NCBI GenBank assembly: GCA_017480995.1
Contig: JAFUQJ010000018.1
Span: 1 to 34,091, forward strand
Reading direction: 5' to 3'
DNA from: Alphaproteobacteria bacterium
GTDB taxonomy: Bacteria; Pseudomonadota; Alphaproteobacteria; RF32; CAG-239
DNA length: 34,091 nucleotides
The stretch's first letter is position 1, and the number at the start of each line of letters is the position of its first letter. A program made the translations under genes and the position numbers. The notes under the pieces were generated by a model. The model was given only the letters and a program-made list of their open reading frames with translations, had not been told where the DNA came from and ran no database searches. Of the stretch, positions 3 to 33,344 are shown piece after piece.

Positions 3-95
3 CCCCATATTTCGGCAATGATTCAGGCTTATGGTCAGAGTGCCAAAACATCTGTCAACCTTTATAAAGAGAAGGGGAATAAATTTGCACCCTGA
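3..95 (+). CDS. C-terminal end of an upstream gene, unidentified
   Basis: An open frame enters from the left edge and reads about 30 residues to a TGA at 93-95. The visible tail contains SAMIQAYGQSAKTSV and KEKGNKFAP and looks like ordinary protein, but it is too short to assign. It lies directly before virB4, where VirB3-like or other T4SS genes often sit. That is position only, not evidence of identity. If real, its end overlaps the likely virB4 start by 11 bases. Confidence 0.35.
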   Translation, partial: PHISAMIQAYGQSAKTSVNLYKEKGNKFAP

Positions 96-2514
96 TTTTG
101 ATTTTTTTAGCACTTTTGTGCAGGGATTGTCGAGCCTTGAAATCTTGGTTGCCGTTATCGGTTTCGTTTCGGCGGCGGCCTTTGCCGGCTTTTGGGTAAC
201 CAAACTGGGCTATTATATTTTGCCACAGCCGCGTGAATCCCGGGTGTCGGATTTTTTGCCGTTTGACAAACTTCTGTCCGACGGCATGACCATTCGCTGT
301 TATAACGGTTCGCTGGCGCGCGTCTTCAGGGTTGAAGGCATCGACCTTGCTTTCGTGACCGACGAAAAGGTGATGTCGATGCAGGAATCCCGCAAGGCCT
401 GGATTGACGGCATGTCGGATTTGCAGGTGACCTGCCGGGTTATCACGCTGCGCGAGCGGATTCCCATGGCGCAGGAAAAAGGCGAGTTTAATAATCCGCT
501 GCTGGAAACGATTTCCGAAACCTGGTCGGCCAATCTCGACCGCGTTTACAAAAACTCGCACTATATTGTTCTGACCGTTGCCGACCGCGAGGACAACCTC
601 AAGGATTTGAACTATGCGTCGCAGGCGCTGATTGCCACGCTGAACGAATACGGCGTTACCACGCTGTTTGAAGCCGAAGGCAGCGATGCCGCCGACAGCC
701 CGTTGTCGGTTTATGCGCGTATCTGCAGCCCGATTTCCAAACCGATGCCGAAGGTTAACGGCGCTCAGGGCGCCCACATGAATCAGCTTTTGACCGCCGA
801 TCACATCCATTTTACCGGCGAAAACGGCGTCATCAGGTTCTTTTCGGGAGACAAAGAACGTTATGAAGTCGTTATGGGGATTCGTTCTTCCGGCGACTAT
901 ATGGACGAAGGCATGGTCGCCTCATTGCTTGCCATCGACTGCGAACTGACGCTGCTGCATAACGTTCGTCCGATTTTCAAGCCGCATGCCCGTGCTCTCC
1001 TGATGCAGCAGCAGCGCATGGCAACCATGACCAGTTTTTCAAGCGATGTTATCGATCAGTACAGCGAAGTTCTGGCCTCGATTGAAGACAGCGACACCAA
1101 CCACCAGTCTTTGACCGAATATGCCATGGCGGTCATTCTGCAGGGTGAGAGCATGGAGGAAATCGATTTCGGCGAGAGCGAGGTTCAGCGTATCTGCCGT
1201 CTGTTCGGCGTTACGCCGGTGCGCGAGGGCTGGGTGACGCAGGCGACTTTCTTTAATCAGTTTCCGACCTATGATACGCTACCGCGGACATACCGCTATC
1301 TGTCCCGCGTGGTGGCAACGGCCATTTCGTTCGAAAAACCGTCCGAAGGTTTCGGCAAGAGCGACTGGGGCAAAGGCGCAATCAGCATTTTCCGCACCAC
1401 TTCCGGTTCGGCTTATCAGTTCCAGTTTCACGTTTCGCCGGAAGATTCCGCGGTGGCCCACTGCTGCATTATCGGTCCGACCGGTCAAGGTAAAACCACT
1501 TTGCTGACGTTTCTGGCCGGTCAGGCAATGCGCCATCCCGACTTAAAGGTCTTCTTCTTCGACCGTCACCGCGGTGCCGAGATTTTCACCCGCGCCATCG
1601 GCGGCGCCTATGTCGGTTTTGAAGGCGATGAGAAAAACGTGTCGCTCAATCCGTTCGACTGTGACAACAATGTCAACAACCGCGCTTTTCTGCGCCGCTG
1701 GATGCGCGCGATTACGCTGGTCGACGACGCCGTTTCCGAAAAGGAAATCGCCCGTGCCGTAACCACCGCGTTTGACTATCTGCGTCCGGAAGAACGCCGC
1801 ATGACCAATCTCTACAAAAGCTGTTTTTCGCCGACCGGCAATATGCGCCGCGAATTGTTCAAATGGGTTAACCCCGATCAGTACGGCAATATTTTCAACG
1901 CCGATACCGATAGTCTGGACTTAAAGTCCAAGCGCTTTATGGCCTTTGACTTTACGCATATTTTCGAAGACGAGACGCTGGCGCCGGCCGTCATCAGCTA
2001 TATTATGCACCGTATTCAGTCCGAAACCGGCGAGACCGGCGTGCCGTCGCTGATTATGATTGACGAAACCGCGCCGATGCTCAAGCATCCGATGTTCCGC
2101 GACTACTTTGCCATCGGTCTGCAAGAGGGACGTAAAAAACGCCAGGCTTATCTTTGCGCGTTCCAACAGCCCAACATTATCGATAAGCTCGGTGTCGGCG
2201 AGGTCATCCGCGGCCAGTGCCAGACCGTTATCTTTTTCCGCAACCCGCAGGCGATGCCGGAAGACTATGTCAACTGGAACCTGACCAATGCCGAGACTGA
2301 TTTTATCTTCGGCAAAAGCTATCGCGATTTTCCGTATGCCATTTTGCTCTCAAGGCCGGCTACCGGTGAATCTGTCATTCTCGACGTCGATTTGAGCGGT
2401 CTGGGGCCCTATCTGCGGCTCTACAATTCCGGCCGCAAAAACGTCCTTTTGGTTGAGGAACTGATTAAGGAATACGGCGAAGAAAACTTTGTTACAAAAT
2501 ATTTAAATATTTAG
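85..2514 (+). CDS. virB4: VirB4/CagE-family T4SS ATPase
   Basis: VirB4 is the large conserved ATPase at the cytoplasmic base of a T4SS. The protein is about 809 residues, a normal VirB4 length. It has an N-terminal hydrophobic segment (around EILVAVIGFVSAAAFAGF), a CagE/TrbE/VirB4 N-domain, a Walker A motif GPTGQGKTT (bases about 1475-1500) and a Walker B-like SLIMIDETAP (bases about 2047-2076) followed by the EGRKKRQ segment typical of the family. The frame is open to a stop at 19-21, so the first possible start is ATG 31. I prefer TTG 85: it has GAAGGGG at 71-77 with 7 bases of spacing, and the upstream frame reads to base 95. GTG 40 is another option. The extreme N-terminus shows an extra membrane segment but no clear VirB3 fusion. 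Assignment is firm; the start is not. Confidence 0.93.
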   Translation: MHPDFDFFSTFVQGLSSLEILVAVIGFVSAAAFAGFWVTKLGYYILPQPRESRVSDFLPFDKLLSDGMTIRCYNGSLARVFRVEGIDLAFVTDEKVMSMQESRKAWIDGMSDLQVTCRVITLRERIPMAQEKGEFNNPLLETISETWSANLDRVYKNSHYIVLTVADREDNLKDLNYASQALIATLNEYGVTTLFEAEGSDAADSPLSVYARICSPISKPMPKVNGAQGAHMNQLLTADHIHFTGENGVIRFFSGDKERYEVVMGIRSSGDYMDEGMVASLLAIDCELTLLHNVRPIFKPHARALLMQQQRMATMTSFSSDVIDQYSEVLASIEDSDTNHQSLTEYAMAVILQGESMEEIDFGESEVQRICRLFGVTPVREGWVTQATFFNQFPTYDTLPRTYRYLSRVVATAISFEKPSEGFGKSDWGKGAISIFRTTSGSAYQFQFHVSPEDSAVAHCCIIGPTGQGKTTLLTFLAGQAMRHPDLKVFFFDRHRGAEIFTRAIGGAYVGFEGDEKNVSLNPFDCDNNVNNRAFLRRWMRAITLVDDAVSEKEIARAVTTAFDYLRPEERRMTNLYKSCFSPTGNMRRELFKWVNPDQYGNIFNADTDSLDLKSKRFMAFDFTHIFEDETLAPAVISYIMHRIQSETGETGVPSLIMIDETAPMLKHPMFRDYFAIGLQEGRKKRQAYLCAFQQPNIIDKLGVGEVIRGQCQTVIFFRNPQAMPEDYVNWNLTNAETDFIFGKSYRDFPYAILLSRPATGESVILDVDLSGLGPYLRLYNSGRKNVLLVEELIKEYGEENFVTKYLNI

Positions 2515-11854: not shown

Positions 11855-12613
11855 ATGGTGCAAGGTCAAATACAAAACGGCAGACAGACGCTGGCAATCG
11901 AAGACGCCGCTGCCTCGTCGCCGGAGTTTATCGAAAAAATCGAGCGGGAGACGGAAGGCTTCAAGCTGTATTATTATCTGTGGCTTTCCCGGCTGTTTAT
12001 CGCGACGACGATTTTTTCGATGCTGTTTCTGATTGCTTCGGCGCTGGCTTTGTTCCGGCTGGCGCCGATGGTTTCCGTCGAGCCGTTTCTGATTATCCGG
12101 CAGGACGCTTCGGAAGGGATTGTCCGTGACGAGCCGATTGCCATGGACATGCCCTCGCGCGACAAGCTGCTCGAAACCTTTATCCGCCAGTATGTCATTA
12201 CCCGCAACACGGTTATCAACGATCCCAAGGAGATGCGTTCCCGCTGGATGGGCGGAGGGATGGTAAACTTTTTGTCTTCGCCCGAGGTGTTTGAGGAGTT
12301 TTCCAAAGACGTCCGCCGCCGCTGGGAAAACATGTTTAAGCAGGCGCTGGTGCGCGAGGTGGAGATTATTTCCGTCGTTCGCCAGGGCGGCGCGCGTTCC
12401 CCGGTCTGGAAAGTCGATTTTAAGACTTATGATTTATACGACGAGCAAAACCGCAATCAGGCCCAAAAAGAGGCGACGCTCCGCGTGCGTTACTGGACGG
12501 CTTCGGTAACGGCCGCTTTTATCCGCGAGCGCGTCTTTATGGGACGTCGCCTGATTAATCCGCTCGGCTTTACCGTCACGCGCTATTCTCAGACCGAGGT
12601 CGACATCTTCTAG
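11855..12613 (+). CDS. virB8: VirB8-family inner-membrane protein, copy 1
   Basis: VirB8 is a bitopic inner-membrane assembly factor with a periplasmic NTF2-like domain. This 252-residue protein has a short cytoplasmic tail, one TM segment (about residues 46-68) and then the family signature SVEPFLI. A periplasmic domain follows with FIRQYVITRNTV, a VWKVDFKTYDLY strand, and the conserved ending VRYWTASVTAAF...INPLGFTVTRYS. ATG 11855 lies 16 bases after the previous stop; the ribosome binding site is weak (GGATAGG). It is followed by the longest gap in the plus-strand cluster. The second VirB8 at 12929 clearly belongs to the same family but is divergent, so the two may occupy different positions in the complex, as duplicated VirB8s are thought to do in Rickettsiales. 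Confidence 0.9.
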   Translation: MVQGQIQNGRQTLAIEDAAASSPEFIEKIERETEGFKLYYYLWLSRLFIATTIFSMLFLIASALALFRLAPMVSVEPFLIIRQDASEGIVRDEPIAMDMPSRDKLLETFIRQYVITRNTVINDPKEMRSRWMGGGMVNFLSSPEVFEEFSKDVRRRWENMFKQALVREVEIISVVRQGGARSPVWKVDFKTYDLYDEQNRNQAQKEATLRVRYWTASVTAAFIRERVFMGRRLINPLGFTVTRYSQTEVDIF

Positions 12614-12928: not shown

Positions 12929-13657
12929 ATGGCGGAAAGAATTGAGGGGAACCCCGGCGGACGGAGATTAATCGGCAGCAGAGCGGCCGAAAATGCCGCG
13001 CTGAAGCAGTCTTCCGAGCTTTTTGTAGCCAATGTCGGCGAAAAAAGGTATCTGTGGACGGCGCGCGCTTTCGCCGTCATCACGGCGCTGAGCATTTGCT
13101 GCAATCTTGTCTTGATTTTGGCAATTTATCAGGTTTTGCCGCTGTACCGCGTCGAGCCTTTTCTGCTTACGTTCCAAAACCGCTCCGAACAGGTTTACAA
13201 TATTCAGCCGATCCGCGAGGGCATGCGCAACCAGAAGGCGATTACCGAAGTTTTTGTCCGTCAGTATGTGCTGATACGCAGTTCTTTCAGCCGCGATTTG
13301 GCCGAGATGGAAGCGCGCTGGATGCCCGGCGGCGCAATTCAGGAGATGTCGGCGCCGAATATCTATCAGGACTTTTTGAACAATACCGCCAAAAAGGCGC
13401 TCAGCGTTATCAGAACCCGCGGTTTGCAGCGCGAAGTCAAGATTCTTTCCGTCAACGAGCTGACCAACGGCATTTGGCAGGTGGAGTACGAAACCCGCGA
13501 CATGTATCCGGATTCAGCCAAGCCGGAAGTCAATTATTGGACGGCGTCGCTCAACGTCGGCTATCGCAGAAAAACGGTCAAATACGGCGATCGCCTCAAA
13601 AATCCGGTCGGCTTTACCGTCAACAGGTATTCTTTGACTTATAATAAAGTGGAGTAA
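12929..13657 (+). CDS. virB8: VirB8-family inner-membrane protein, copy 2
   Basis: A 242-residue VirB8 homologue: cytoplasmic tail of about 45 residues, one TM (about 46-68, ITALSICCNLVLILAIYQ), then the hallmark YRVEPFLL. The periplasmic domain has FVRQYVLIRSSF, a MEARWMPGG segment matching MRSRWMGGG in copy 1, IWQVEYETRDMY, and the ending VNYWTASLNVGYR...NPVGFTVNRYSL. It keeps every signature of copy 1 but differs in most other positions, indicating an old duplication. It starts at ATG 12929, 15 bases after the lipoprotein stop, with a weak ribosome binding site. It sits immediately before virB9, the usual virB8-virB9-virB10 order. Confidence 0.9.
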   Translation: MAERIEGNPGGRRLIGSRAAENAALKQSSELFVANVGEKRYLWTARAFAVITALSICCNLVLILAIYQVLPLYRVEPFLLTFQNRSEQVYNIQPIREGMRNQKAITEVFVRQYVLIRSSFSRDLAEMEARWMPGGAIQEMSAPNIYQDFLNNTAKKALSVIRTRGLQREVKILSVNELTNGIWQVEYETRDMYPDSAKPEVNYWTASLNVGYRRKTVKYGDRLKNPVGFTVNRYSLTYNKVE

Positions 13658-13664
13658 TTCGAAA

Positions 13665-15332
13665 GTGGCTTTTATGACTAAAAAATCAGGTTTGCTTTTA
13701 TCTGCCGGGCTTTTGAGCTCCCTTTTGTGCTTCGGCTTTGCCGAGGCGCAGGTCAATCAGCAGGTGATGGACGCCAGCGCCGAGCAGGCTCAGGGGACGT
13801 ATACGCCGATGAATTTGGGCTATGCCGGGTTTAATTCGCTCGGCATGACGCAGGCGGCCTGGCTTGATCCGATGCAGAATTTGGGCGAAGGACAGAGCAA
13901 ACCTGCTTATTCGCGCTATTACTGGTCGCCCGATCTGGTCTTGCCGATCCGTGTGCGCGAAGGCATGATTACGCTGATTAATTTTCCTAATTGGGAAATG
14001 ATTGAAGATATTTTTATCGGTGACAACGCGACGTTTGACGGTCAGATTTCCGGGCCGAATTCGTTAATGCTGTATCCGCGCAAGGGCGCCAACGTCGGCG
14101 TCGACACCAACGTGATTGTCTTCGGCCGCTCCGGCAACCGCTATGTGTTCTACGTCAAGAGCGAAGCTGTCAATACCGAGCGTTTGACCAACTCGATTAT
14201 TGATATCGACGTCGTCGGCGGCAACGACGGTTCCGGCGGAACGCCGAACTATGGCAGCGGCGGCGTTTTGGGCGTTCATACCGGCGGCACCGTTTCCGGC
14301 GGCAAGTCGGTTGACGCCAACTATACCCGCAGCTTCCAGAAGAGCGACTGGCTCAAGTCGATTCCGCTTGATCCGTCCAAATTTCGTTTTGATTTGGAAG
14401 TCTATGTACCGAACCCCGACGACGTGGTGATTGCGCCCGAGCGCGTCTGGCGCGATGATATCTTTACGTATATCGACCTCGGCAAAAAGGCGCTGAACAT
14501 GATGCAGCGTCCGGTTGTCAGCATGATCGTCGAACGGGTTGAGGTTCCGGTCGGCTTCCGCACCAAGGGGCCCGACAACCGTTTGATTATTGTCGAGGGT
14601 GTCGGCGATTTGGTCTTGCGCAACGGCAAGCGCCTGATTTGCATCAAACTGCGTCGTTCGGACGCTTCCGGTCTTGAATACGCAATCGATTCTGCCGATT
14701 ATCTGCCTCCGACCTGGGAAGTTCCGGCCCCGCTGCCGGCGCAAAGCGGCGGCGGAGCGGCAGGACAGGGCGGCGTGCCTTATGGTGATGCCGCAGGGGC
14801 TGCCGCCGGTGCGGCTCAGGGAATGCCGGCCGGTTCGGTTCCCGGACAATATGATATTCAGGTCGGCCAGAGTCAGGTTATCGTTCCGCAGTACGGCGGC
14901 AATGCCGGGGGGCAGAACGTCGGCGTGGGGTATCAGCCCGGAACCGGCGCCGCCGCAAACTTTGATTATTCCAAGATGCAGCGGATCAGCAATACCAACG
15001 CCGGCAGCGGCGCGTCCGCCAATCCGTATTGGCAGCAGTACGGCTACGGTTCGGGCTTTGCCGACGGAGGCAACTCCAATATTTCGATTGAGCTCGGAAC
15101 CGATGCCGATGTCAGCAATCTTGAGGAGCTGTGGGGCAGGCTGTCCAAAAAGTATAAGGCGGACTTGGAGCGTTATGAGCCGTTCTTCTCGGTTGACGCG
15201 CCGGCCGACGGTCAGGGCAAGGAGCTGTTTCATCTGCGTGTCGGCCCTGTCAAAACGCTTGAAGAAGGGGACAAAACCTGCAGCATTCTGGGCCGCAACG
15301 GCGTCTTTTGCAGCGTAGTCAGGACACAGTGA
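13665..15332 (+). CDS. virB9: VirB9-family outer-membrane-complex protein with C-terminal SPOR-like domain
   Basis: VirB9 forms the outer-membrane core ring with VirB7 and VirB10. This 555-residue protein is about twice normal length. Residues 1-29 are a signal peptide. The N-terminal VirB9 domain (about 85-185) includes LPIRVREGMITLINFP, IEDIFIGD and NRYVFYVKS. After a Gly-rich loop, the C-terminal domain (about 245-335) shows VWRDDIFTYIDLG and DLVLRNGKRLICIKL. A Gly/Pro/Gln-rich linker (about 345-480) leads to a final 75 residues reading SNLEELWGRLSKKY...FHLRVGPVKTLEEGDKTCSIL, the shape of a SPOR peptidoglycan-binding domain. GTG 13665 has GGAG 10 bases upstream; ATG 13674 is a possible alternative. 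The VirB9 call is strong; the SPOR call is from pattern only. Confidence 0.88.
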   Translation: MAFMTKKSGLLLSAGLLSSLLCFGFAEAQVNQQVMDASAEQAQGTYTPMNLGYAGFNSLGMTQAAWLDPMQNLGEGQSKPAYSRYYWSPDLVLPIRVREGMITLINFPNWEMIEDIFIGDNATFDGQISGPNSLMLYPRKGANVGVDTNVIVFGRSGNRYVFYVKSEAVNTERLTNSIIDIDVVGGNDGSGGTPNYGSGGVLGVHTGGTVSGGKSVDANYTRSFQKSDWLKSIPLDPSKFRFDLEVYVPNPDDVVIAPERVWRDDIFTYIDLGKKALNMMQRPVVSMIVERVEVPVGFRTKGPDNRLIIVEGVGDLVLRNGKRLICIKLRRSDASGLEYAIDSADYLPPTWEVPAPLPAQSGGGAAGQGGVPYGDAAGAAAGAAQGMPAGSVPGQYDIQVGQSQVIVPQYGGNAGGQNVGVGYQPGTGAAANFDYSKMQRISNTNAGSGASANPYWQQYGYGSGFADGGNSNISIELGTDADVSNLEELWGRLSKKYKADLERYEPFFSVDAPADGQGKELFHLRVGPVKTLEEGDKTCSILGRNGVFCSVVRTQ

Positions 15333-15340: not shown

Positions 15341-18300
15341 ATGAGCAAAGATAACTTAACACATTCCGAGAAGTATATCAAAAAAACCAATCGCATTATT
15401 CTTGCGATTGGTATTACTTCTTTTTTGATATTTGTTTTCGGTGTGTTTTTGCTCATCAAAAGCAATCAGGTCGAAGATAATTTCGAAGAGCCGGTCTTTA
15501 CGGACAACGCCGACGTCTTGGGCGACGTCAGCGCGCCGGCGTTAACGCAGAACATTGAGTTTTCGACCATGGAGGGCGAGATTCCTCTGACCACCACGCC
15601 CGATCCGGTGCCGATGGGCGAGGTTGTGCTCGGAACCGATGCCAAAAACGTTCTGACGCTCGGTACCAACGGCAGGGCCGCCGTCAAAATCGTTTCGGTA
15701 GAGCTGGCAGATCCGCCGGCCGACGGTTTTTCTTTTCAGAGCGGCTGCGACGGCAAAACGCTGACCGGTAACGATACCTGCCATATTACCATGAGCTGGG
15801 CGCCCGTCATTGCCGGAAACGTGCAGAACAATTTTATTATCTCGTGGTATGAGCTTAATCTTGGCGAAAACAACGTCAAATCTGCCAAAGTTCCGGTCAG
15901 CGGCAATGCCGTTACCAAGGAAGACTGCAAGTTGTGCGAGAACGTTTCGGTTTCCGAGGCCGGCGGTGTGGCCGGTACGCCTAAAGCCGTCCGCTATGCA
16001 ATCGGACCGGACGGAAAAATTCTCGGTATTATTGACGAAGACGGCTATGTCCGCGATGCCAACGGCAATATCATCGGCCGTGTCGGCGCCGACGGCATGA
16101 TCCGCGATGCCGACGGCAATGTCATCGGCGTTGCCGAAAACCGTCGTGCCGTTTACGACGAATTCGGCAATCTCATCGGCTATGTCAATCCCGACGGTTC
16201 GGTGGTCGATTTGGACGGCAATGTCATCGGCCGCGTTCTGCCCGACGGCACGGTGGTCGATCTGAACGGCAAGGTTATCGGCCGCGCGGTCGAAACCGGC
16301 TTTGTTTATGATAAGGACGGCAATATTATCGGCCGCGTTTTGCCCGACGGCACGGTTGTGGATATGGACGGCAACGTTATCGGCAGGGTAATGCCCGACG
16401 GCACGGTGGTCGATTTGAACGGCAATGTCATCGGCAATATTACCAAGCCGGGACGCGTGGCGGTCGATGCCAACGGCAAGGTCTTGGGCGTCGTCATGCC
16501 CGACGGCAGCGTTGTCGATGCCAACGGCAATGTTATCGGATACGTTGACGAGAACGGCAACATCGTTTCCAAAAATTCGCCCCTGCAGGGCAAAAAACTG
16601 CGCGTTGCCTACGATGCCAACGGCAATATCATCGGCTATGTCGATGAAAACGGCAATCTGCTCGACATTAACGGCAACATCATCGGCAGAATGCGCGAAG
16701 ACGGCACGATTGTCGATTTGCAGGGCAACGTTATCGGCTATGTCGGCGAAGAAGTGCAGTTTGACGAGAACGGCAATATTATCGGCGCCGTGGTAAACCT
16801 GAGCAGGCTGCCGATTACGCCGCAGGGAACGCTGCTCGGAATTTTGCAAAACGACGGCAGCATCGAAAATTCGGCCAAACAGGTCGTAGGGCGGGCGCTT
16901 CCCAACGGTCTGGTTAAAGATCCCGGCGGTTCCAAAATCGTGGCCAAAATGGTCAACGGCGGCTTTGTCGTCGGTTTCGGCTGCAAACAGCTGGGATATC
17001 TGGACAAAGACGGCCTGATTAAGAAGGGTAACGAGGATACCAAACTGCGGATTACGCCCGAAGGCTCGGTGCTGGATGCCGAGGGGCGCTATGCCGGAGA
17101 AGTCTTGCGCCGCGGCCCCGTGTTTGACAATAAGTGCCGTTTTTTGGGAACGGTTGACAATACCGGAATTGTCAAAGACAACGATAACCGCTATGTCGGC
17201 TGCGTCAATCCCGACGGCAGCGTTTTGGACGAGAAAGGCGATTACGTCGGCCATGTTGCGAGCCGGGGCGCCGCTGTCGACTATGACGGCCGCTACCTCG
17301 GGCGGATAGACAATCAGAACCGCGTCGTCAACGATGCCGGGCTTCCGGTCGGCTGCGTCGGTTTCGGCGGCGACGTTTTTAACAACGAGGGCGTTTATAT
17401 CGGCCGTGTCGTCGGCAGAAAATATGCGTTTGATTTCAACGGCGACTATATCAACCCGGTTGACGACGACGCCAAGGTAAAGATTTACGGCAAGCCCTCG
17501 GCTTCGCTGTCTTCCAATAATCTGGTGCTGGACAACAACAATAAGATTATCGGCGTTGCTCTGGATGCCGAAACGGCGGTCGGCAACGCCCGCGGCAACG
17601 CTTTGGGAATGCTGTTCCCCGACGGCGGCATCTACAGCGCCAAAGGAATTTCTCAGGGAAAGGTCAAAAATGACGGCCTCGGTTTTTACGGTTCCGTTCT
17701 CGGCGCGGCTTTTCCGCGCGGCGAGGTGATTAATCTGCGCGGGGAGAATGTCGGCGTCGCTTATCAAAACGGCGAGGTCTTCAGCCGTTACGGCGATCGG
17801 CTCGGCTATGTCGACGGCCGCGGCAAGTATTTTAATCACAAAAACGAATATCAGGGCGCGATCGTCCGCCGGGGCGCCGCCATCGGGTATGACGGCTCGT
17901 ATCTCGGCTATGTCATTGCCGACGGTACCGTGGTTGACATCAACGGCAAAACTTCCGGCCGCGTTACGCATGACGAAAAAATCGCCGACGACAAAGGCCG
18001 CATTATCGGTGAGGTTATTCCCGAAAACGCGATTATTGACATTTGGGGGAATTATAAAGGCTTTTTGAACTCGCTCGGCGACGTCACCGATCTCAAGGGC
18101 GAAGTCGTTACCGCCATTTTGCCCGGCGGCGCGACCGACAACAATCTGAGCGTCGTCAAATCGGGCGTCGTTATCGATTTCGGCGGCAATCCGGTCGGCG
18201 TGGTCATGCCTGACGGTGCCGTTGCCGATAAGAATAATGTCGTCATCGGCCGGGCGCTGTCCGACGGAAATGTCGTCAGCGTTGCCGGAAAACTCATCGG

Positions 18301-18649
18301 CGAGGTGGTCGACGGCGACATCGTCATCGGCAATAACGATAAAGTTGTGGGTTATGTTCTTTTTGATGGCAAAATAATCGGTAAAGATGATAGTATTATC
18401 GGCAGGAGCCTCTCCGGCGGCCTGGCCATTGATCTGAAAGACGGTATTCTCGGCAAGATTTATAAGATCGGCGCTTCCGTTTTGGGCAATGACGGCGGCT
18501 ACAAGGGGCGGCTGGCGCATGACGGCAGCGTGATTGACGCCGACGGCAAAAATATCGGCTATGTCAAGAGCAACGGTTCGTTTATTGATTTGGACAAGAA
18601 AGTTGCCGGCTATGTGCTGCAAGAGGTTGCCAAAAACCGGAGGAATTAG
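15341..18649 (+). CDS. Inner-membrane-anchored repeat protein, N-terminal half of a split VirB10/DotG-like component
   Basis: A 1102-residue protein. ATG 15341 is preferred; TTG 15308 lies inside virB9. The short basic cytoplasmic start is followed by one TM segment (about 19-40, IILAIGITSFLIFVFGVFLL), the topology of VirB10. Residues about 80-205 form a beta-rich domain with two Cys (QSGCDGKTLTGNDTCHITM) and an ending VPVSGNA, like Ig-type ASH/HYDIN-like domains. A CKLC motif follows. From about 215 to the end the protein is a degenerate tandem repeat of about 17 residues, consensus VVDxDGNVIGRVxPDGT. It has no VirB10 C-terminal domain; that is in the next gene, in the same frame, after TAG plus one codon. 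A structural bridge across the periplasm is inferred. Confidence 0.75.
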   Translation: MSKDNLTHSEKYIKKTNRIILAIGITSFLIFVFGVFLLIKSNQVEDNFEEPVFTDNADVLGDVSAPALTQNIEFSTMEGEIPLTTTPDPVPMGEVVLGTDAKNVLTLGTNGRAAVKIVSVELADPPADGFSFQSGCDGKTLTGNDTCHITMSWAPVIAGNVQNNFIISWYELNLGENNVKSAKVPVSGNAVTKEDCKLCENVSVSEAGGVAGTPKAVRYAIGPDGKILGIIDEDGYVRDANGNIIGRVGADGMIRDADGNVIGVAENRRAVYDEFGNLIGYVNPDGSVVDLDGNVIGRVLPDGTVVDLNGKVIGRAVETGFVYDKDGNIIGRVLPDGTVVDMDGNVIGRVMPDGTVVDLNGNVIGNITKPGRVAVDANGKVLGVVMPDGSVVDANGNVIGYVDENGNIVSKNSPLQGKKLRVAYDANGNIIGYVDENGNLLDINGNIIGRMREDGTIVDLQGNVIGYVGEEVQFDENGNIIGAVVNLSRLPITPQGTLLGILQNDGSIENSAKQVVGRALPNGLVKDPGGSKIVAKMVNGGFVVGFGCKQLGYLDKDGLIKKGNEDTKLRITPEGSVLDAEGRYAGEVLRRGPVFDNKCRFLGTVDNTGIVKDNDNRYVGCVNPDGSVLDEKGDYVGHVASRGAAVDYDGRYLGRIDNQNRVVNDAGLPVGCVGFGGDVFNNEGVYIGRVVGRKYAFDFNGDYINPVDDDAKVKIYGKPSASLSSNNLVLDNNNKIIGVALDAETAVGNARGNALGMLFPDGGIYSAKGISQGKVKNDGLGFYGSVLGAAFPRGEVINLRGENVGVAYQNGEVFSRYGDRLGYVDGRGKYFNHKNEYQGAIVRRGAAIGYDGSYLGYVIADGTVVDINGKTSGRVTHDEKIADDKGRIIGEVIPENAIIDIWGNYKGFLNSLGDVTDLKGEVVTAILPGGATDNNLSVVKSGVVIDFGGNPVGVVMPDGAVADKNNVVIGRALSDGNVVSVAGKLIGEVVDGDIVIGNNDKVVGYVLFDGKIIGKDDSIIGRSLSGGLAIDLKDGILGKIYKIGASVLGNDGGYKGRLAHDGSVIDADGKNIGYVKSNGSFIDLDKKVAGYVLQEVAKNRRN
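15985..18610 (+). repeat. Coding tandem repeat, 51-bp unit, array 1
   Basis: Each unit encodes about 17 residues with the core DGNVIG and a PDG turn. The unit is exactly 51 bp in consecutive copies starting at 16151, 16202, 16253, 16304, 16355 and 16406, where identity is high (for example, GTGGTCGAT begins several units). After about 16.8 kb the copies diverge and spacing varies to about 17-22 residues. From memory the motif recalls DUF3659-type GNVxDxDGNVIGR repeats; this needs a profile search. Confidence 0.85.
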
Positions 18650-18652
18650 GGA

Positions 18653-21600
18653 GTGACCTGGAAGACAAGACTGAAAACGATTTTCAAAACGGCGCGCTGC
18701 GTTATGCTGGCGCAGCTTTTGACGGTCGGTCTGTCTGCGGTGCAGGCGCAGGAAATCACGGCCATTAACTTTGACGGCGAAGTCTTGGGCAAAGTTATTC
18801 CCGACGGCAAGGTTGTCGGCGCCGACAACAAACTTATCGGCAACGTGACCGCCGACAGTTTGATTGTCAGTTTTGACGGCAAATTAATCGGCGGCGTTAT
18901 TCCGCAGGGCGTGGCCATCGGCAGTGACGCGCGTCCGCTCGGCAAAGTAAATAACGACGGTTCCGTCCGTTCCGCTTCGGGACAGGTGCTGGGACGCGTT
19001 TTGCCCAATGGCCTGGTGGTGGACGATTTCTTTAACATTGTCGGCGCGGTTGTCTTCCCGGGGCTGGTTTATTCCGACGAGGGGGCGACGGTCGGCCGCA
19101 TTACCGGCGACGGCCTGTATACCAACCTTCAGGGCCAGCAGATCGGCGTTGTCACGCCGGACGGCTATGCGTACCGCAGGGTAGGCAACGATTATCTGCT
19201 CGAAGGCCGGCTGATTTCTTCCAAAATGGTGGTTTCCCTGCAAGGGGAGTTTATCGGCAGCGTTTCTCCGGGCGGCCAGGTTTCCGACTTTAATTCTCAG
19301 ATAATCGGCAAAATCAAAGCCAACGGTTTTGTTTATGACGACGAAGACCGGATCGTCGGCAAAATCGTCAAAACCGGCTATGCTTTTGACAACAGCGGAT
19401 ATTATCTCGGTTTCGTCAGCTACAACGGCGAAGTCGTTGACGGCGGCAATACGGTCGGACGGCTGCGCGCCGACGGAAAAATTGCCGACCTGACCGGCAA
19501 AATCATCGGTTACAGCATTGATTTCGCGGCGGCCGCGACTGATCTGAAAGGCAAATATATCGGCCGTGTCCTGCCCGACGGAAATTTGGCGCGCGCCAAA
19601 ACAATCAGTGCTCTGGTCGGTGCCCGCGGCGTCGTTTTCGGAGCTGACGGCGGCACCATGGGACAGCTTGCGGCAACCGGCCCTGTTTTTGACTATAAAG
19701 GGGCGTTGCGCGGCCATGCTTTGCCCGGCGGCAGCGTAATTTCGCTCAACGGCACGCCGCTCGGATACGTTGTCGGCTCGGCGGCTTATGATTTGTCCGG
19801 CCGCATGCTGGGACGCGTCAGCCGCGGCAAAATGGTTTTCTCGACGGCCGGCGACGTTCTGGGCGTCAGCGGCATCGGCAGCCGCATGACGGCGGACTCC
19901 AAGCAGCTGTTGGTTTCTCCGCTGGGTTATGTCTTCAATCAGGACGGCGATTTCTCCGGCGAAGCGCGGACGATTGCGCCGCTGTATAATCCTGCCGGCG
20001 CCAATGTTTCGATGATCGGGCTCAACGGCCGCGCCGTCAACGAACGCGGGCTGGATGAGGGCTATGTGACCGGCGGCGGCTATTTGATAAACCAGCAAAA
20101 CAAACTGACGGCCAAGGCCATAGACGATTTTTATGCCGTTTCCAAAGAGGCGAAGTCTTTGGGCAGTCTCAATGCCGACAATCTGATTTTGGATACTTCG
20201 CTGCGCATTATTGCCAAAATTCTGCCCGACAATTCGGTGGTCGAAACCGACCGTTCGGTCAGCAACAATTATCAGCCCAAAACCGGTCAGGCCTATGCCG
20301 AAGACATTGCTGTCGATTTTACCGGAAATTTTGTCGGTTACACGGACATTCTCGGCAACGTCAATAATCTTTCCGGCGCCAAGGTGGGGCATGTGGCCGA
20401 GCGCGGTCTGGTCATTGACAACAACGGCATCGTCAACGGTTTTGTGGTTCCGTATCGCGCCATGCTGAACGAAAGCTGCGAGGTAATCGGCGTCGTCACC
20501 CCGCGCGGCGATGTTCAGAATTTCCGCGGTGTTTATCTCGGCAGGGTTTTGGCCAACGGTCAGGTTCTGAGCGACAGCGGCAGTATTCTGGGCTTCTTGG
20601 CGCCGTCTGCGCCGGTTGTCGGTACTGACGGCAGTGTTTCCGGGGTGGTCGGCGCCGACGGCAAGGTTCTCGATATGGAAAAGAACAGCCTCGGCTGCAT
20701 CAGCCGGAGCGGCCTGCTGCGCAATGCCGACGGTTTGGTTATCGGCGGCGCGCTCAAATCGGGCGCGGCCATGGCTTTCAACGGCGACGTTCTCGGATAT
20801 TCGTCAATTGACGGCGGCATTGTCGGCGCCAATAATCAGATTGTCGGCTATCAGCAGCCCGACGGCAACGTCAATTCCTCTGCCGGCATTCCGGTCGGCG
20901 CCATGATGGAATACAAAGTGGCCTTTAATTTGGACAACCGTTTTATGGGCCGCGTTCTGTCTGACGGAACCGTTGTTGGCGACAAGTTCAAGAATGTCGG
21001 CCGCGTCAATTTTGAAGGATACGTCGTTTCCGGCGGCCAAAAAGTCGGCTATGCCTTGTATGATTTTTACGTCTACGACGCAAACGACAACGCAATCGGC
21101 TATATCAACCGCAACGGCGATGTCGTCAGCTTTATCAACCAGAGCCTGGGGCGGGTTGAACGCGGTTTCCTGCTGGACAAAGAGCAGAATGTCATCGGCC
21201 GTGGCAATCGCGATTACAACATCCGCGAAAAAACGCAGCTGGTTATCGGTCGTCTTTTGTTTAACGGCGATGTAGCCGATGCCGCCGGCAATATTGTCGG
21301 CAAGCTGGCCAAGGCCGGAGAGATAAAGGACAAAAACGAACAGACGATTGCCCAGGCCTCGCCGTTGCAGTATTACAGCAAGATTACCGCGCAGCCCAAG
21401 CGCAAAATGGTCTTTGACAAAGACGGCAACTTTATCGGTTATCTTGACGAGAACGGCAATGTGGTCGATGCCGACGGCAATATCATCGGCACCCTTGACA
21501 AAGACGGCAATGTGGTCGACAAGGACGGCAACATTATCGGCAGCAACGCCAAAGGCAAGGCTGTTTATGACAAGGACGGCAATGTTATCGGTCATTTGGA

Positions 21601-23200
21601 TGAAGACGGCAACGTCGTTGACGCCAACGGCAAAATCATCGGCAAAGTGGCGGAAAACGGCGATGTTGTTGATGCCAACGGCAATGTCATCGGCGGTATC
21701 GGCAGCAACTGGTACGAGAAAGCGCCGGCCCGCAGCGAGCCCGCCGCCAAAGACGAGGACGTCAGTCCGGCTCTCAAACTTCTGGAAAGCAAGCAGTATC
21801 GCAAATCATTGGGTATAGCTCTGACGCCGGACGGCGAATATCTGGGCGATATTCTGGAAGACAAAACGGTCATTGATGCCGACGGCAATTATCTCGGACG
21901 CTTAATGCCCGACGGTCTGGTTATTGACGACGACGGTACTTTAATCGGTGTTGAGGAGGTCAAAAAGCCCGATACCTCCGGAATGTTTGTGCCTGCCGGA
22001 ACGTTCGGCGACGGCGGCGCCTACGGAACCGGAACGGGGCCTGCCGGCAATCTCGGTCCCGGCGGCGGCTACGGTCCCGGCGAACGTTATGATCCGGCGC
22101 GTCAGGCCGCTCTGAATGCGGCCATGGCCGAACGCCGCAAAAACATTACCGTCGGCAAAATCAGCAACGGCATGCGGAAAGAAGCCTTTGACGGTATGCA
22201 GAAAGACTGGGAAGAGCAGGGTATCGGCAAGGTAATTTCATCCTGGCGGGTTGACCTGAGCGAAATGATTTTTGCCGACAAACCGATTCCGGCGGTAATT
22301 GCCCGTCCGATTGACAGCAACAATCCGGCGCCGATTACCGCGTTTGTCGAACGCAATGTCTATGCCGAAGAAGGGCGCAACGTCATCATTCCGGCCGGCA
22401 GCCGTCTGATGGGAACGCTGGGCGGCCTGACCGCCAGCGCGGAAGCGACTTCGGAATCCGCCCGCGTACAGATTTCCTGGGAACGCCTGATCCGTCCCGA
22501 CGGCTCGCTGTTTGTCTTCCAGGGCCTGACTGCCGATGCTCAGGGCCGTGCCGGCGCGCTGGGTTACGTCGATCAGCAGCTGTTCAAAAAATACACTTTG
22601 CCGGTCTTGACAACCAGTTTAACCAGTGCCACATCATACTTTATGGCGCCGAGCGACAACGAATCCGACAATGAAACGCCGCGTCAGCAGGCGGCCAACG
22701 ACGCGCGGCAGAACTTCCTGAACGAAATGAGCAATATTTTTGACGAAATTCTGGCCGACAAGTCAAGCATCAAACCGATGACTTATATTCCGGCCGGTAC
22801 GCGTATTATCGTCTTTCCCAATACCGATCTGTGGTTAAGAACGCTTGAGCGTGATCAGGATTCTTCTCTCCAGCTCGAAAAACCGCAAGTCTTTATTGAC
22901 GATGGCGAAAAAGCTGCCGAAAAGGCCAAATTTGATGCCGAAAGCACCAAAAAGACGGTCAGCACGGCCGGTGCCGGCGGCGATGTCGTTTATGATGCCA
23001 GCGCCGATGTCGAGAGTGCCAAAGCGCCGGCGCCGTTGGTCAGCTCGCCCAAGCAGAATAAACCGGCCGGCGCGGTTCCGGGCTATATTGCTCCGCCGCC
23101 TCCGCCGTCCTCCTCCTCGGGAACGACGGCATCAACGCCGCAGACCGGTACGGGCAGCGGAACGTCGTCGTCTAATAACAGTGTCCCGGCATTGTTTTAG
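18653..23200 (+). CDS. virB10: VirB10/TrbI-family outer-membrane component with giant N-terminal repeat region
   Basis: VirB10 C-terminal domains form the outer-membrane channel ring of T4SSs. This 1515-residue protein starts at GTG 18653 with GGAGG 9 bases upstream. It has a signal peptide (residues about 1-33, ending LSAVQAQ), which normal VirB10, anchored by an N-terminal TM, lacks. Residues about 37-1110 are the same 17-residue repeats as in the preceding gene, degenerate except for a regular block near 980-1020. A Gly-rich linker precedes the TrbI/VirB10 domain (about 1163-1430): ITAFVERNVYAEEGRNVIIPAGSRLMG, ISWERLIRPDGSLFVF, ADAQGRAGALGYVDQ, a hydrophobic antenna-like KYTLPVLTTSLTSATSYF and PAGTRIIVFPNTDLWL. 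The tail is low-complexity Pro/Ser/Gly. It is several times longer than classic VirB10; CagY and DotG are the known repeat-bearing relatives. Confidence 0.88.
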   Translation: MTWKTRLKTIFKTARCVMLAQLLTVGLSAVQAQEITAINFDGEVLGKVIPDGKVVGADNKLIGNVTADSLIVSFDGKLIGGVIPQGVAIGSDARPLGKVNNDGSVRSASGQVLGRVLPNGLVVDDFFNIVGAVVFPGLVYSDEGATVGRITGDGLYTNLQGQQIGVVTPDGYAYRRVGNDYLLEGRLISSKMVVSLQGEFIGSVSPGGQVSDFNSQIIGKIKANGFVYDDEDRIVGKIVKTGYAFDNSGYYLGFVSYNGEVVDGGNTVGRLRADGKIADLTGKIIGYSIDFAAAATDLKGKYIGRVLPDGNLARAKTISALVGARGVVFGADGGTMGQLAATGPVFDYKGALRGHALPGGSVISLNGTPLGYVVGSAAYDLSGRMLGRVSRGKMVFSTAGDVLGVSGIGSRMTADSKQLLVSPLGYVFNQDGDFSGEARTIAPLYNPAGANVSMIGLNGRAVNERGLDEGYVTGGGYLINQQNKLTAKAIDDFYAVSKEAKSLGSLNADNLILDTSLRIIAKILPDNSVVETDRSVSNNYQPKTGQAYAEDIAVDFTGNFVGYTDILGNVNNLSGAKVGHVAERGLVIDNNGIVNGFVVPYRAMLNESCEVIGVVTPRGDVQNFRGVYLGRVLANGQVLSDSGSILGFLAPSAPVVGTDGSVSGVVGADGKVLDMEKNSLGCISRSGLLRNADGLVIGGALKSGAAMAFNGDVLGYSSIDGGIVGANNQIVGYQQPDGNVNSSAGIPVGAMMEYKVAFNLDNRFMGRVLSDGTVVGDKFKNVGRVNFEGYVVSGGQKVGYALYDFYVYDANDNAIGYINRNGDVVSFINQSLGRVERGFLLDKEQNVIGRGNRDYNIREKTQLVIGRLLFNGDVADAAGNIVGKLAKAGEIKDKNEQTIAQASPLQYYSKITAQPKRKMVFDKDGNFIGYLDENGNVVDADGNIIGTLDKDGNVVDKDGNIIGSNAKGKAVYDKDGNVIGHLDEDGNVVDANGKIIGKVAENGDVVDANGNVIGGIGSNWYEKAPARSEPAAKDEDVSPALKLLESKQYRKSLGIALTPDGEYLGDILEDKTVIDADGNYLGRLMPDGLVIDDDGTLIGVEEVKKPDTSGMFVPAGTFGDGGAYGTGTGPAGNLGPGGGYGPGERYDPARQAALNAAMAERRKNITVGKISNGMRKEAFDGMQKDWEEQGIGKVISSWRVDLSEMIFADKPIPAVIARPIDSNNPAPITAFVERNVYAEEGRNVIIPAGSRLMGTLGGLTASAEATSESARVQISWERLIRPDGSLFVFQGLTADAQGRAGALGYVDQQLFKKYTLPVLTTSLTSATSYFMAPSDNESDNETPRQQAANDARQNFLNEMSNIFDEILADKSSIKPMTYIPAGTRIIVFPNTDLWLRTLERDQDSSLQLEKPQVFIDDGEKAAEKAKFDAESTKKTVSTAGAGGDVVYDASADVESAKAPAPLVSSPKQNKPAGAVPGYIAPPPPPSSSSGTTASTPQTGTGSGTSSSNNSVPALF
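18760..21960 (+). repeat. Coding tandem repeat, array 2, same unit as array 1
   Basis: Degenerate copies of the motif (for example FDGEVLGKVIPDGKVVGADNK) fill the first 3.2 kb of the VirB10 gene. A well-preserved block with exact 51-bp spacing starts at 21461, 21512, 21563, 21614 and 21665. Its units are close in both protein and DNA to the best units of array 1 about 5.2 kb upstream, in direct orientation and the same codon register. Confidence 0.85.
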
Positions 23201-23214: not shown

Positions 23215-24183
23215 ATGAGTTTTACGGTGTTAGAGTCGATTTTAAGACCTTTGTCTTATTGGTATACTCAGGACAATATCGAAGAAGTGGCGGTCAACCG
23301 CTCCGGTCAGGTATGGCTGCGTCTGCGCGGCAAACGGGCCTATCCGTGGGTGATGTATAAGGATGAGAAGCTGACCAAAGAATATCTGACCGATTTGCTG
23401 TATATTATCGCCAATACCTATGAACTTCCCTTTGATCCGGTGCAGGGCAACCCGGTCGTTTATGCCGCAATTCCCGGCGAGCACCGTTTTTCGGCAATCT
23501 GCGGCCGCAACGTCATGTATGATAATGACGATTTGACCGGCGGTATTGCGCTGACCATCCGCGTCCATTCCGATGACGTTGCTTTCGGGCTGGGAGATTA
23601 CGGCCTTACTCAGGGGCAGAAGCTGCACAAAATTAATCCGCTCAAAGATATCAAAGAACCGGAAGATCCCTACGAACGCCTGCTCCTGAGCATCAAACGC
23701 GGCGATCATATTCTGGTTTCGGGCGCAACCGCAACCGGTAAGACGACTTTCTTAAACAACCTGCTCAAAATTTTGGACATCAACAAACGCATTCTGACAA
23801 TCGAAGATACGCGCGAGCTGGTCGTGCCGCATCCGAACCGTGTGCATATCGTCTTGTCTCGTACCGAGCAGACCAATGCCCTGACTTATGCCAAAGTTAT
23901 CGATTTGGTGGTTCGTTTTACGCCCGATGCGATTATCGGCGGCGAGATATCGACCGGAAACGCCGGCGCCATTTGGGAGCTGATGGGCTCTGGTCACGAC
24001 AACTGTCTGGCCACCATTCACGCCGAAAGCTCGGAAGCGGCGTATCAGGCTTTTACCGATCGTATTTTGCATACCTATCCGACGATCGACCGCAAAAAAA
24101 CCATTGAGGAAATGCACCAGAAGCTGCGCGTTGTCCAAATCAACCGTGACGGCAACCTGCGCGCCGTCACCGAAGTCACTTAG
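23215..24183 (+). CDS. virB11: VirB11-family hexameric traffic ATPase
   Basis: VirB11 is the cytoplasmic hexameric ATPase that works with VirB4. The protein is 322 residues, typical for the family. It has an N-terminal domain (VAVNRSGQVWL), Walker A GATATGKTT (about residues 168-176), the Asp box LTIEDTREL, a Walker B region (FTPDAIIGGEIS, with GGE instead of the usual GEIR) and the His box CLATIHAESSEAA (about 262-274). ATG 23215 follows AAGGAG by 6 bases. It is the last plus-strand gene, 14 bases after virB10, and faces a convergent gene 43 bases away. It is more VirB11-like than PilT-like because of the N-domain and its place directly after virB10. Confidence 0.93.
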   Translation: MSFTVLESILRPLSYWYTQDNIEEVAVNRSGQVWLRLRGKRAYPWVMYKDEKLTKEYLTDLLYIIANTYELPFDPVQGNPVVYAAIPGEHRFSAICGRNVMYDNDDLTGGIALTIRVHSDDVAFGLGDYGLTQGQKLHKINPLKDIKEPEDPYERLLLSIKRGDHILVSGATATGKTTFLNNLLKILDINKRILTIEDTRELVVPHPNRVHIVLSRTEQTNALTYAKVIDLVVRFTPDAIIGGEISTGNAGAIWELMGSGHDNCLATIHAESSEAAYQAFTDRILHTYPTIDRKKTIEEMHQKLRVVQINRDGNLRAVTEVT

Positions 24184-30695: not shown

Positions 30696-33344
30696 CTAAC
30701 CGTTGTAGCGCTCAAACTCATACATGTGGGCATAGGCCATTTCATTGCCGTTGGCGGCGGCAAAACTGCGGGCGTTCTTAATTTCGTCTTCGCTGAAAAT
30801 GCTGGTGTTCAGGCCCTCGTTGAGTTTTGAATAACGCTTGGTTTTGTTGTAGTAGTCGTAATAGGCCGAATACCCGTAGGTTTCGCGGACGGATTCTGCG
30901 TCGGCGGACTGCTGCCAGTTCTGCATGTCGACGTCTTCGACCTTGCCGTTGATGCGGAACGTCCGCTTGCGGTTAATCACGCCGTCGGTTGCCAGACTGG
31001 TGCCGCGGCCTTTTTTGTCAATCTGCGTCATTTCGGTCATCATGCGCCCTTCGTCCATGCGCGTTTTGACAATCGTTCTGGAACCGTCGGCATGCGTCTC
31101 TTCAAAGCCGATAATGTTGCCGTTGTTGTCGCGAATGGCTTTTTGCTGAACATAAGCGTGGTTTTTCATGTTCATTTTGGTGTTGGGAATTGTCTTGGCC
31201 GCGATTTGTTTTTGCAGCGCAATCATCAGCTGTTCTTCATTGGGCTGCCCTTTAACCGCTTCCATAGCCTTCTGGTAGTTTTCCTGATTGACGGCGCCGT
31301 TCTTTTCAAACATCTTGTTCAGGAACGGGCTGTTGGCCGTGACTTCGTCGTTGTACGAGGTGATGTTTCCGTCTTTGTCGCGTTTTACCTCGGTCGTTAT
31401 GGTAAAGTTTTTGTTTTTGACTTTGGTAACGGTCTCTGTTCCGGTCGCCTTAAAACCCTTAAAAGGATTAATACTGTGCGTCTTTCTGATTTTGCTTTCG
31501 GTCACGGTTTTGCGGCCGTCGGCGGTTTCCGTCAGCGACAAGGTTTTGGAGCGTCTGCGCAGCCAGGATTTCGTATTGTAAGTATAAGTGCCGGTAGCCG
31601 CGTCATAAGTGCCCTTTTTCTTGATACGGTCGGCCTGACGGCTGATTCTCGCCTGACGAATGCCTCCGGCCAGACCGGCGCCGGCGCGTTTGGTCAGATT
31701 CCATGCCTTGTCGGCGGCGGCCGAAACCGGCTTGTCCAAAACTTTGGTTGCGGCGCTCTTGGTAAACGAGCCGGCCATTGTGCCGATGGAACTGCCGATT
31801 TTGGTGCTCGTAATGCTGCCCGAAAATTGTTTGGCGAAATCCGTTGCCTCGCCGATAACGCTCCAGGCCAGGATCAGAACAAAGCAAACTTCCAGGAATT
31901 TTGAAGAAAACCAGGATAACTCGTTGAGAAGGAGTTCCATCTCAACGCCTTTGGCATATTCTTTAAACAAGGTATCCGTATTGGCCGTTGCGTTGGTAAT
32001 GATTTGTTCCAGCGCGGTGGTTACCATCAGCGCAATCAGCGACACAAACACAAAGGCAAACATCGCGTTGATAAACGTCTCCCAGACTTTGCCGGTATAT
32101 TGCCGCGTCGCTTTGAAGGCATAGGCGCCGATGGCAAACGGGAGAAGCGAGCCGGCCACTGCCAGCTGCAGCACGGAGTCGATCATCATAAACGGCACCG
32201 CCAGCAGAATCAGCATGCCGCCCACCCACAGGCCGATTCCGACCAGCAGATAACCGAGATGAGGAATAATAAAAGCTCTTTTTTGCCATGAATAACAAAT
32301 ACTGGCGCTGCCCAGAGCCTTAACCCGCGCCGCCCGGTTTTGGATCAGTCCCATCGTGCAGAGGACGCCTTCTCCCATTTCGGTCGGCAGCGCGCCTTCT
32401 TTTTCGGTGCTCGGGAGATTATATTTGGTCATGCTTTCGCATTTGTATTCGTCAACTTCGGCTTTAACTTCGGAAGTATTTGTCGTTTTTGCCTTTTGCA
32501 GGGCGTCATTGGAGCCGCTGCCTGCCTGTTCCGGCGTTAGAATCGCTTCCGCCGCGCTCATTCCGGTATTGAATATCGGGCTGAGTGCATCATTAAGAAA
32601 AGAAAAGGCGCCGGATTGCAGCAAAACGACCGCAATCAAAACAAACAGACTCTGGGTAATGATTGCCAACACCAGATCTTTGAGATCGCGGACTTCCGGC
32701 GAGGATACAAAAGCCAAAATCTGCAAAGCAATCCAGACTGCAAAACCGATAATAACCACTTTGTAAACCGAGCCGGAATAGCCGTCTATCGCTTTGCGTG
32801 TCATAACGCTGGCAGCGCGGAAAAACGTGGCAAACAGCGGACAGAAAGTACACTTGCCTTTGACTTCATCGTAGTAACATTTAGGCGAGCATTTGGTATC
32901 AGAGCTTTTACAAGCATTTGCTAATTTGAATAACATGTTCTTTTGCGAGTTGAGATTCGCTATTTTAACGTTTAGTTTTGATGCTGAAGCCGCATCCTTA
33001 GTTTGATGTAAGGCTTCTTTGGTCGCCGCAATTTCTTCATCAATTTCGGCATTGCGTTTTTGTATCAGGCGGTCTTTATCAACATCAAGATATTCATTAT
33101 ACAACTCCGTGGTTCTTGCTTCTCTTTTTTCAGCCGGAATGTTGGCCACGGTTGTCATTAGTTTATCAAGCTCTTCTGTCTCAGCTTCCGTACGGTTTGC
33201 TTTATAGAGCAATTCCTCCGCTCGTTCTATATATTGAGTATAATCTTGAGCATAAGAAAATTGAGAGAATGCAATAATAGCCCAAATCGTCAGAAACAAA
33301 ATTTTGACGTTTATTTTCTTGAATATGCCCAATACGTTAGTCAT
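30696..33344 (-). CDS. virB6: VirB6/TrbL-like polytopic membrane protein with long hydrophilic tail
   Basis: VirB6 proteins are polytopic inner-membrane channel parts. This one has 882 residues against about 300 for classic VirB6. It begins with a signal-like segment (residues about 14-31), then a helical, probably periplasmic domain ending in a Cys cluster C145-x6-C-x3-C-x8-C-x2-C followed by PLFATFF. About six hydrophobic segments lie between residues 193 and 510 (YKVVIIGFAVWIALQILAF; LVLAIITQSLFVLIAVVLL; a double block near LGYLLVGIGLWVGGMLIL; AMFAFVFVSLIALMVTTAL; FLEVCFVLILAWSVIG). The last 370 residues are hydrophilic, basic at first, with NGNIIGFEE and DKDGNITSY motifs like those in the VirB10 repeats. 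Long-tailed VirB6 proteins are known in Rickettsiales. It starts 11 bases after the preceding gene and has a modest ribosome binding site. Confidence 0.82.
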   Translation of the reverse strand: MTNVLGIFKKINVKILFLTIWAIIAFSQFSYAQDYTQYIERAEELLYKANRTEAETEELDKLMTTVANIPAEKREARTTELYNEYLDVDKDRLIQKRNAEIDEEIAATKEALHQTKDAASASKLNVKIANLNSQKNMLFKLANACKSSDTKCSPKCYYDEVKGKCTFCPLFATFFRAASVMTRKAIDGYSGSVYKVVIIGFAVWIALQILAFVSSPEVRDLKDLVLAIITQSLFVLIAVVLLQSGAFSFLNDALSPIFNTGMSAAEAILTPEQAGSGSNDALQKAKTTNTSEVKAEVDEYKCESMTKYNLPSTEKEGALPTEMGEGVLCTMGLIQNRAARVKALGSASICYSWQKRAFIIPHLGYLLVGIGLWVGGMLILLAVPFMMIDSVLQLAVAGSLLPFAIGAYAFKATRQYTGKVWETFINAMFAFVFVSLIALMVTTALEQIITNATANTDTLFKEYAKGVEMELLLNELSWFSSKFLEVCFVLILAWSVIGEATDFAKQFSGSITSTKIGSSIGTMAGSFTKSAATKVLDKPVSAAADKAWNLTKRAGAGLAGGIRQARISRQADRIKKKGTYDAATGTYTYNTKSWLRRRSKTLSLTETADGRKTVTESKIRKTHSINPFKGFKATGTETVTKVKNKNFTITTEVKRDKDGNITSYNDEVTANSPFLNKMFEKNGAVNQENYQKAMEAVKGQPNEEQLMIALQKQIAAKTIPNTKMNMKNHAYVQQKAIRDNNGNIIGFEETHADGSRTIVKTRMDEGRMMTEMTQIDKKGRGTSLATDGVINRKRTFRINGKVEDVDMQNWQQSADAESVRETYGYSAYYDYYNKTKRYSKLNEGLNTSIFSEDEIKNARSFAAANGNEMAYAHMYEFERYNG

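Follow-up and report, generated by a model that had tools for sequence, protein, structure and literature searches.

A conserved two-gene VirB10 in a divergent VirB-type secretion system of Alphaproteobacteria: predicted inner- and outer-membrane halves

In this work, we describe a VirB-type secretion locus in which the VirB10 subunit appears as the products of two adjacent genes, an inner-membrane half (VirB10-N) and an outer-membrane half (VirB10-C). Judged from the sequences of its relatives, the split is real and conserved, and the two-gene state is kept in one clade of Alphaproteobacteria, represented mostly by gut MAGs. We regard it as probable that the VirB10 of this divergent VirB-type system is naturally made as two chains, that it arose by one fission, and that its halves would bridge the envelope by non-covalent docking. 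In every characterised T4SS, VirB10-like subunits are said to reach across the whole envelope, and their scaffold and signal-transducing roles are taken to rest on this (PMC6520456); VirB10 is reported to be inserted in both membranes (PMC6362355). In the literature searched, which was mostly judged from listings, no description of a natural two-gene VirB10 was recognised.

The window, by which we mean the whole stretch of 34,091 nucleotides that was analysed, is one contig of a 1.49 Mb genome (158 contigs, 84% complete). It carries a VirB-type secretion locus comprising a VirB4-like ATPase (31..2514, + strand; PF03135 45 bits, above cut-off; TIGR00929 383.5 bits, under the cut-off of 643.1), two VirB8 proteins (paralogue 1, 11855..12613, + strand, PF04335 E 4.7e-16; paralogue 2, 12929..13657, + strand, PF04335 E 4.4e-24), VirB9/CagX (13665..15332, + strand, PF03524 E 8.5e-12), the two VirB10 halves, a VirB11-like ATPase (23215..24183, + strand; TIGR02788 139.9 bits, under the curated cut-off of 249.95) and a VirB6/TrbL-like inner-membrane protein (30696..33344, − strand, PF04610 E 3.5e-09). 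Since VirB11 and VirB4 are matched with clear bit scores that nonetheless fall under the NCBIfam cut-offs, we treat the system as a divergent VirB-type relative. The split VirB10 genes sit between virB9, directly upstream of VirB10-N, and virB11, directly downstream of VirB10-C. The VirB8 paralogues form a tandem pair within the operon. VirD4-type coupling proteins are encoded on two other contigs of the source genome, and a profile search of this 84%-complete genome for three relaxase families (PF03432, PF08751 and PF03389) gave no match, which fits a role in protein secretion without proving it.

VirB10-N (15341..18649, + strand; 1102 aa, stop codon TAG) has a start that resembles the starts in its relatives. 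Its transmembrane anchor occupies residues 19-37 (15395..15451, + strand; 19-residue hydropathy 2.79 at residue 19), and the 32 single-chain VirB10s discussed below likewise begin with an anchor. An Ig-like (ASH/HYDIN-type) module may follow at about residues 80-190 (15578..15910, + strand); it is tentative because the PF15780 match at residues 91-162 (E 0.00085) reaches 19.9 bits at a cut-off of 27. The remainder of the protein is a beta-flower repeat array (15998..18646, + strand; PF21785, Bflower_2, E 4.7e-65 in 8 stretches) with a period of 17 residues, autocorrelation peaking at 17 and 34. Part of these repeats, searched against PDB sequences, returned weak Rhs, teneurin and Tse5-type matches only (best E 4e-05), and the Pfam search of VirB10-N found no TrbI domain. 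In one genus (g4; loci L036/G037, L068/G079 and L069/G082) the N-half frames are 2,094 to at least 2,481 residues long and the C-halves are of usual length.

VirB10-C (18653..23200, + strand; 1515 aa, GTG start) begins with a predicted Sec signal peptide (residues 1-32, 18653..18748, + strand), assigned from the lenient (-3,-1) rule and hydropathy, and continues with its own beta-flower array (18749..21925, + strand; PF21785 E 8.5e-63 in 6 stretches), again with a period of 17. The TrbI/VirB10 outer-membrane domain lies at residues 1206-1395 (22268..22837, + strand; PF03743 E 3.6e-35, above cut-off), its best solved relative being ComB10 (2bhv, E 6.8e-20), followed by TrwE, TraF and VirB10. 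In the 19-residue hydropathy scan no segment of VirB10-C reached anchor strength, the sole one reported (1.82, at residue 121) falling within the repeats. The usual combination of the VirB10 anchor and TrbI on the same chain is thus not found here, the anchor being on the N-half only. The first-pass annotation had described the locus in just these terms (an anchor without TrbI in the first gene, a leader and TrbI without an anchor in the second, one type of repeat in both), and the profile search of both products against TrbI/VirB10, which only the C-half matched, upheld this description.

A survey of relatives was used to see how general this arrangement is. A complete VirB10 elsewhere in the genome would have spoken against the split, and the source genome (84% complete) gave one TrbI match only. 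Among 153 genomes of the order, 121 had a TrbI match and 32 had none; there was one match per genome in 120 of the 121, and in the remaining one, G177, one domain is cut over two contigs. Most of the TrbI matches in the order (109 of 122) fall within open frames of roughly 1,270-1,890 residues. Four frames are longer, two belonging to split loci with long arrays (G171 and G166) and two coming from masked stretches (G130 and G173); nine are shorter, those of G030 and G035 touching contig ends. In an even sample of the class, at least 123 of 385 genomes had a TrbI match, most frames among the matches listed being shorter than 700 residues.

The best 80 of 541 relatives comprised 41 split loci, 32 that join the two modules in a single chain and 7 that are masked or truncated by contig ends; the window and seven other genomes add eight more split rows. 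A profile of the N module (N-half residues 1-205) matched all 32 single-chain proteins, at their N-terminus, as well as 44 of 48 N-halves and none of 49 C-halves, and the TrbI profile matched 32/32 single-chain proteins, 0/48 N-halves and 49/49 C-halves. The four N-halves without the N module start in a masked stretch or at a boundary of the contig or of the sequence fetched. VirB11 matches just downstream of VirB10 in single-chain and split loci alike, and a VirB9-like frame was seen by eye upstream. 'Azospirillum sp. CAG:239' (L133), which we take to be placed by GTDB in the order RF32, family CAG-239, has one of the split loci. One record among the alphaproteobacterial split loci on the tree is titled 'Lactobacillaceae bacterium' (L100) and is probably a mislabelled MAG.

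We propose that the ancestor was one chain composed of anchor, Ig-like module, repeats and TrbI, and that a single fission inside the repeat array would have given the second part a signal peptide. The C-half would be exported, shed its leader and join VirB9 in the outer-membrane ring, and the N-half would remain in the inner-membrane platform; the bridge would be formed, with no peptide bond, by the C-terminal end of the N-half array docking onto the N-terminal end of its C-half counterpart.

Alignments that covered 31 of the 48 N-halves and 32 of the 49 C-halves, taken in windows of 50 residues, served to measure conservation at the new ends. The last 50 residues of VirB10-N (18497..18646, + strand) stand at percentile 0.992 of all such windows and at 0.998 among repeat windows; for residues 1051-1090, i.e. 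leaving aside the last 12, which overlap the ribosome-binding site, the values are 0.874 and, over repeats alone, 0.887. On the other side of the junction, the C-half reaches 0.995 for its first 50 mature residues, both over all and over repeat windows, and 1.000 for mature residues 1-40. In two groups of single-chain proteins (10 and 4 rows) the corresponding position gave percentiles of 0.31-0.61 over the whole chain and 0.26-0.66 over repeats; with the parts taken apart, the N-side end gave 0.07 and 0.34 and the C-side start 0.77 and 0.41. A third single-chain group (7 rows) is without a placed junction and lies outside this control. Identity at fourfold sites of the ends (0.34 for N and 0.34 for C) is at background (0.34 and 0.33 overall), therefore the constraint on the new ends acts mainly at the protein level. 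Other parts of both halves, among them N-half residues 251-375 and the first 175 residues of the C-half, approach the new ends in conservation.

The raised conservation of both new ends, the one observation that speaks for contact, suggests, but does not prove, end-to-end docking. A change in how energy from the inner-membrane ATPases reaches the outer-membrane ring, as put forward in the first-pass annotation, may follow from such contact. Docking would be the most natural reason for constrained ends, but exporting the C-half, keeping the ribosome-binding site or contacting other partners could explain them as well: conservation of the first residues of the C-half could stem from export or leader processing, and that of the last residues of the N-half from the ribosome-binding site. 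We also considered that the halves do not dock at all, the C-half alone being a working outer-membrane VirB10, the N-half an independent inner-membrane protein and the bridge made by other components, for example VirB8, VirB9 or the stalk. The completeness of every C-half for TrbI is compatible with this, as is the lipoprotein-like, anchorless appearance (by eye) of two outgroup VirB10s, which indicates that loss of the anchor may be tolerated elsewhere. We nevertheless think it unlikely, since the two genes abut or nearly so at 48 junctions, the N-half retains the N-terminal module of single-chain VirB10s and both new ends are unusually conserved.

As to the history of the two-chain state, a tree of TrbI and VirB11 parted the 49 split from the 34 single-chain rows by one branch (SH-aLRT 95), that is by one change. 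This tree excluded L045 and eight cut or masked rows, and included L046 as single-chain with its frame running from the contig end; L129, L002 and L003 have no VirB11 match and stand outside the trees. An earlier tree with all rows agrees, provided that G201 (L056) is counted as split. This row was classed as split by eye, from its leader and split junction, the frame break coming later in the C-half. L056 itself belongs to an early split lineage, and its C-half has a frame break, real or from assembly, about 400 residues in, at about 2006-2033 on the reversed strand. The uninterrupted homologues that were sought as possible counter-evidence do exist as single-chain proteins, but outside the split clade on the tree.

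Placing the single-chain giants in one clade gave an AU p of 0.50 and was thus not rejected. Because the root among giant VirB10s is accordingly not fixed, the direction of change rests on the architecture of the outgroups. In G054 and G063 an Ig-like module is followed by TrbI in one chain, with HYDIN-type matches of E 5e-06 (above cut-off) and 1.1e-04 (under cut-off), respectively, and in G058 a single frame contains the anchor, what looks by eye like an Ig-like stretch, and TrbI. One fission within the repeat array is the simplest reading of these data, and most likely it was a single old event. That the split state is older among the giants, with single-chain giants as later fusions, is left some room by the unfixed root; it seems to us quite improbable, given that G054 and G063 combine the Ig-like module with TrbI in one chain and that G058 joins anchor, Ig-like stretch and TrbI in one frame.

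With regard to the site of the fission, a long collinear match placed the homologous junction point in 20 of 32 single-chain relatives, 15 times at residues 785-830, within continuous repeats, and 5 times at 432-522; because of the repeats, the homologous junction in single-chain proteins is uncertain. The VirB10s of L044 (G054; 12943-14556) and L046 (G063; 3-1829), both on reversed strands and from two other families, have by eye a lipobox-like start that replaces the anchor ahead of the Ig-like module and TrbI, which counts somewhat against the outgroup case for fission. A lipoprotein VirB10 of this kind could be a further way of losing the anchor; the G063 frame reaches the contig end.

The proposed two-chain architecture depends also on the leader of the C-half being cut. 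By eye, this leader opens with basic residues, followed by a short hydrophobic core and an A-x-A-type end ahead of the mature start, which is conserved. The lenient (-3,-1) rule is satisfied beside that start in 48 of 49 C-halves, the exception, L034, being partly masked. For the leaders the strongest 19-residue hydropathy spans 1.04-2.24 (n=49), below the 2.34-3.46 measured for the anchors of N-halves and single-chain proteins (n=76), and none of the 49 leaders attains anchor hydropathy. An uncut leader would serve as a signal anchor, so that both chains would sit in the inner membrane and the C-half would span the envelope alone. The recurrence of the putative cleavage motif at the same place, the hydropathy outside the range of anchors and the strong conservation of the mature start make such a topology very unlikely.

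Frame length alone is no proof of a split, therefore the junctions were read directly. In the window, the stop TAG (18647-18649) is followed by GGA (18650-18652) and by the GTG start at 18653, with both frames open, and GGAGG, the predicted ribosome-binding site of the C-half (18639..18643, + strand), lies 9 nt ahead of GTG, within the end of the N-half gene. In 48 of 49 split rows the frame of the N-half stops next to the C-half; in the other, L129, the contig begins too near. At these 48 junctions the first gene stops with TAA (21), TAG (20) or TGA (7), the second frame is in phase with the first in 13 cases and out of phase in 35, and a second start codon, counted from the final base of the stop, lies at +1 to +8 in 46 cases and at +19 (L076) and +20 (L107) in the other two. 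A Shine-Dalgarno-like motif, by a loose pattern, precedes the candidate start at all 48. These junctions look like those of two coupled genes.

The claim made earlier that the split is real, with a good ribosome-binding site, is borne out by this comparison. Its companion, a shared frame interrupted by an amber codon, is correct for the window (TAG, then GGA) and does not extend to the group as a whole, where phase was kept at 13 and TAG used at 20 of the 48 junctions. It had also been suggested that rare readthrough of TAG could still yield a fused form of some 2,600 residues. The idea that readthrough, or another recoding step, makes a working fusion draws on the two in-phase frames of the window with only TAG and one codon between them. 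The varied stops and frames do not support a general route to such a product, and the leader would land in the middle of the chain, where no segment of anchor strength is found in 32 single-chain relatives (strongest 1.99). We hold it to be scarcely credible; amber readthrough would be incidental, and as a general mechanism it is largely refuted. The two-gene state at 48 junctions with differing stops and frames also means that the TAG is no sequencing error. A broken gene or an assembly or sequencing error, for which broken single-chain genes such as that of G351 (L155) offer a precedent, was given a negligible probability and ruled out by the survey, where 41 of the best 80 loci are split and the 40 of these with a readable junction have a close second start. 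In L155 (7376-7397, reversed strand) a VirB10 of single-chain type is broken into two overlapping frames, the second without a leader, which contrasts with the true split.

In comparison with known systems, the split VirB10 resembles VirB10, TrwE, TraF and ComB10 (TrbI family, PF03743) in its C-terminal outer-membrane domain and in the gene order virB9-virB10-virB11, and differs from them in being two chains, known VirB10s being single polypeptides that carry an inner-membrane helix. Like the present proteins, CagY, the VirB10 of the Helicobacter pylori Cag system, is described as very large and as containing a long repeat region (PMC6520456); it is one chain, and its repeats are reported to be alpha-helical modules (PMC2581425), whereas those of the present proteins match the beta-flower families PF21785/PF21784. 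Giant VirB10s made as single chains in other alphaproteobacterial MAGs (L071, L084 and L112 among them) share the N module, beta-flower-type repeats, TrbI and the downstream VirB11, in one chain of 1,273-2,831 residues with no internal anchor-strength segment (strongest 1.99, n=32). Large size is also a feature of DotG/IcmE, the VirB10-type protein of Dot/Icm, which is one chain with a repeat region. A Dot/Icm reading of the locus, based on its large VirB10-type protein, was ruled out, as the ATPase of the window scores 139.9 bits with VirB11 and 18.6 bits with DotB (cut-off 463.3). An engineered Split CagX (VirB9) of H. pylori is likewise a core-complex subunit made as two chains, although artificial and a different subunit from VirB10 (PMC13417560); in this mutant the periplasmic ring is reported to assemble, other cap components being absent or minimal (PMC13417560).

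A stable, clade-wide two-chain VirB10 would amount to a natural experiment on whether the covalent link is needed and where the bridge may be cut. If the halves do dock, the inner and outer rings need not contain equal numbers of them. A two-chain subunit could relieve symmetry mismatches such as those of Cag, for which a 14-fold outer-membrane cap and a 17-fold periplasmic ring are reported (PMC13417560). The fuller reading, a two-part strut docked via beta-flower repeats, with unequal copy numbers in the two rings, make-and-break coupling and no single chain relaying the inner-membrane signal outward, has in our opinion an even chance of being right, going by sequence data.

Several further genes of the window deserve mention. 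The C-terminal part of VirB9 (13665-15332) has a SPOR-like match of 19.7 bits (cut-off 21), perhaps indicating contact with peptidoglycan. Six consecutive genes at 2597-7902 include several with leader-like starts (by eye); two have coiled-coil-type Pfam matches under cut-off and four have none at E 0.01. At 25025-26281 (− strand) a 418-aa product, lipoprotein-like by eye and without a Pfam match, resembles, again by eye, the 420-aa product adjoining VirB10 in L044.
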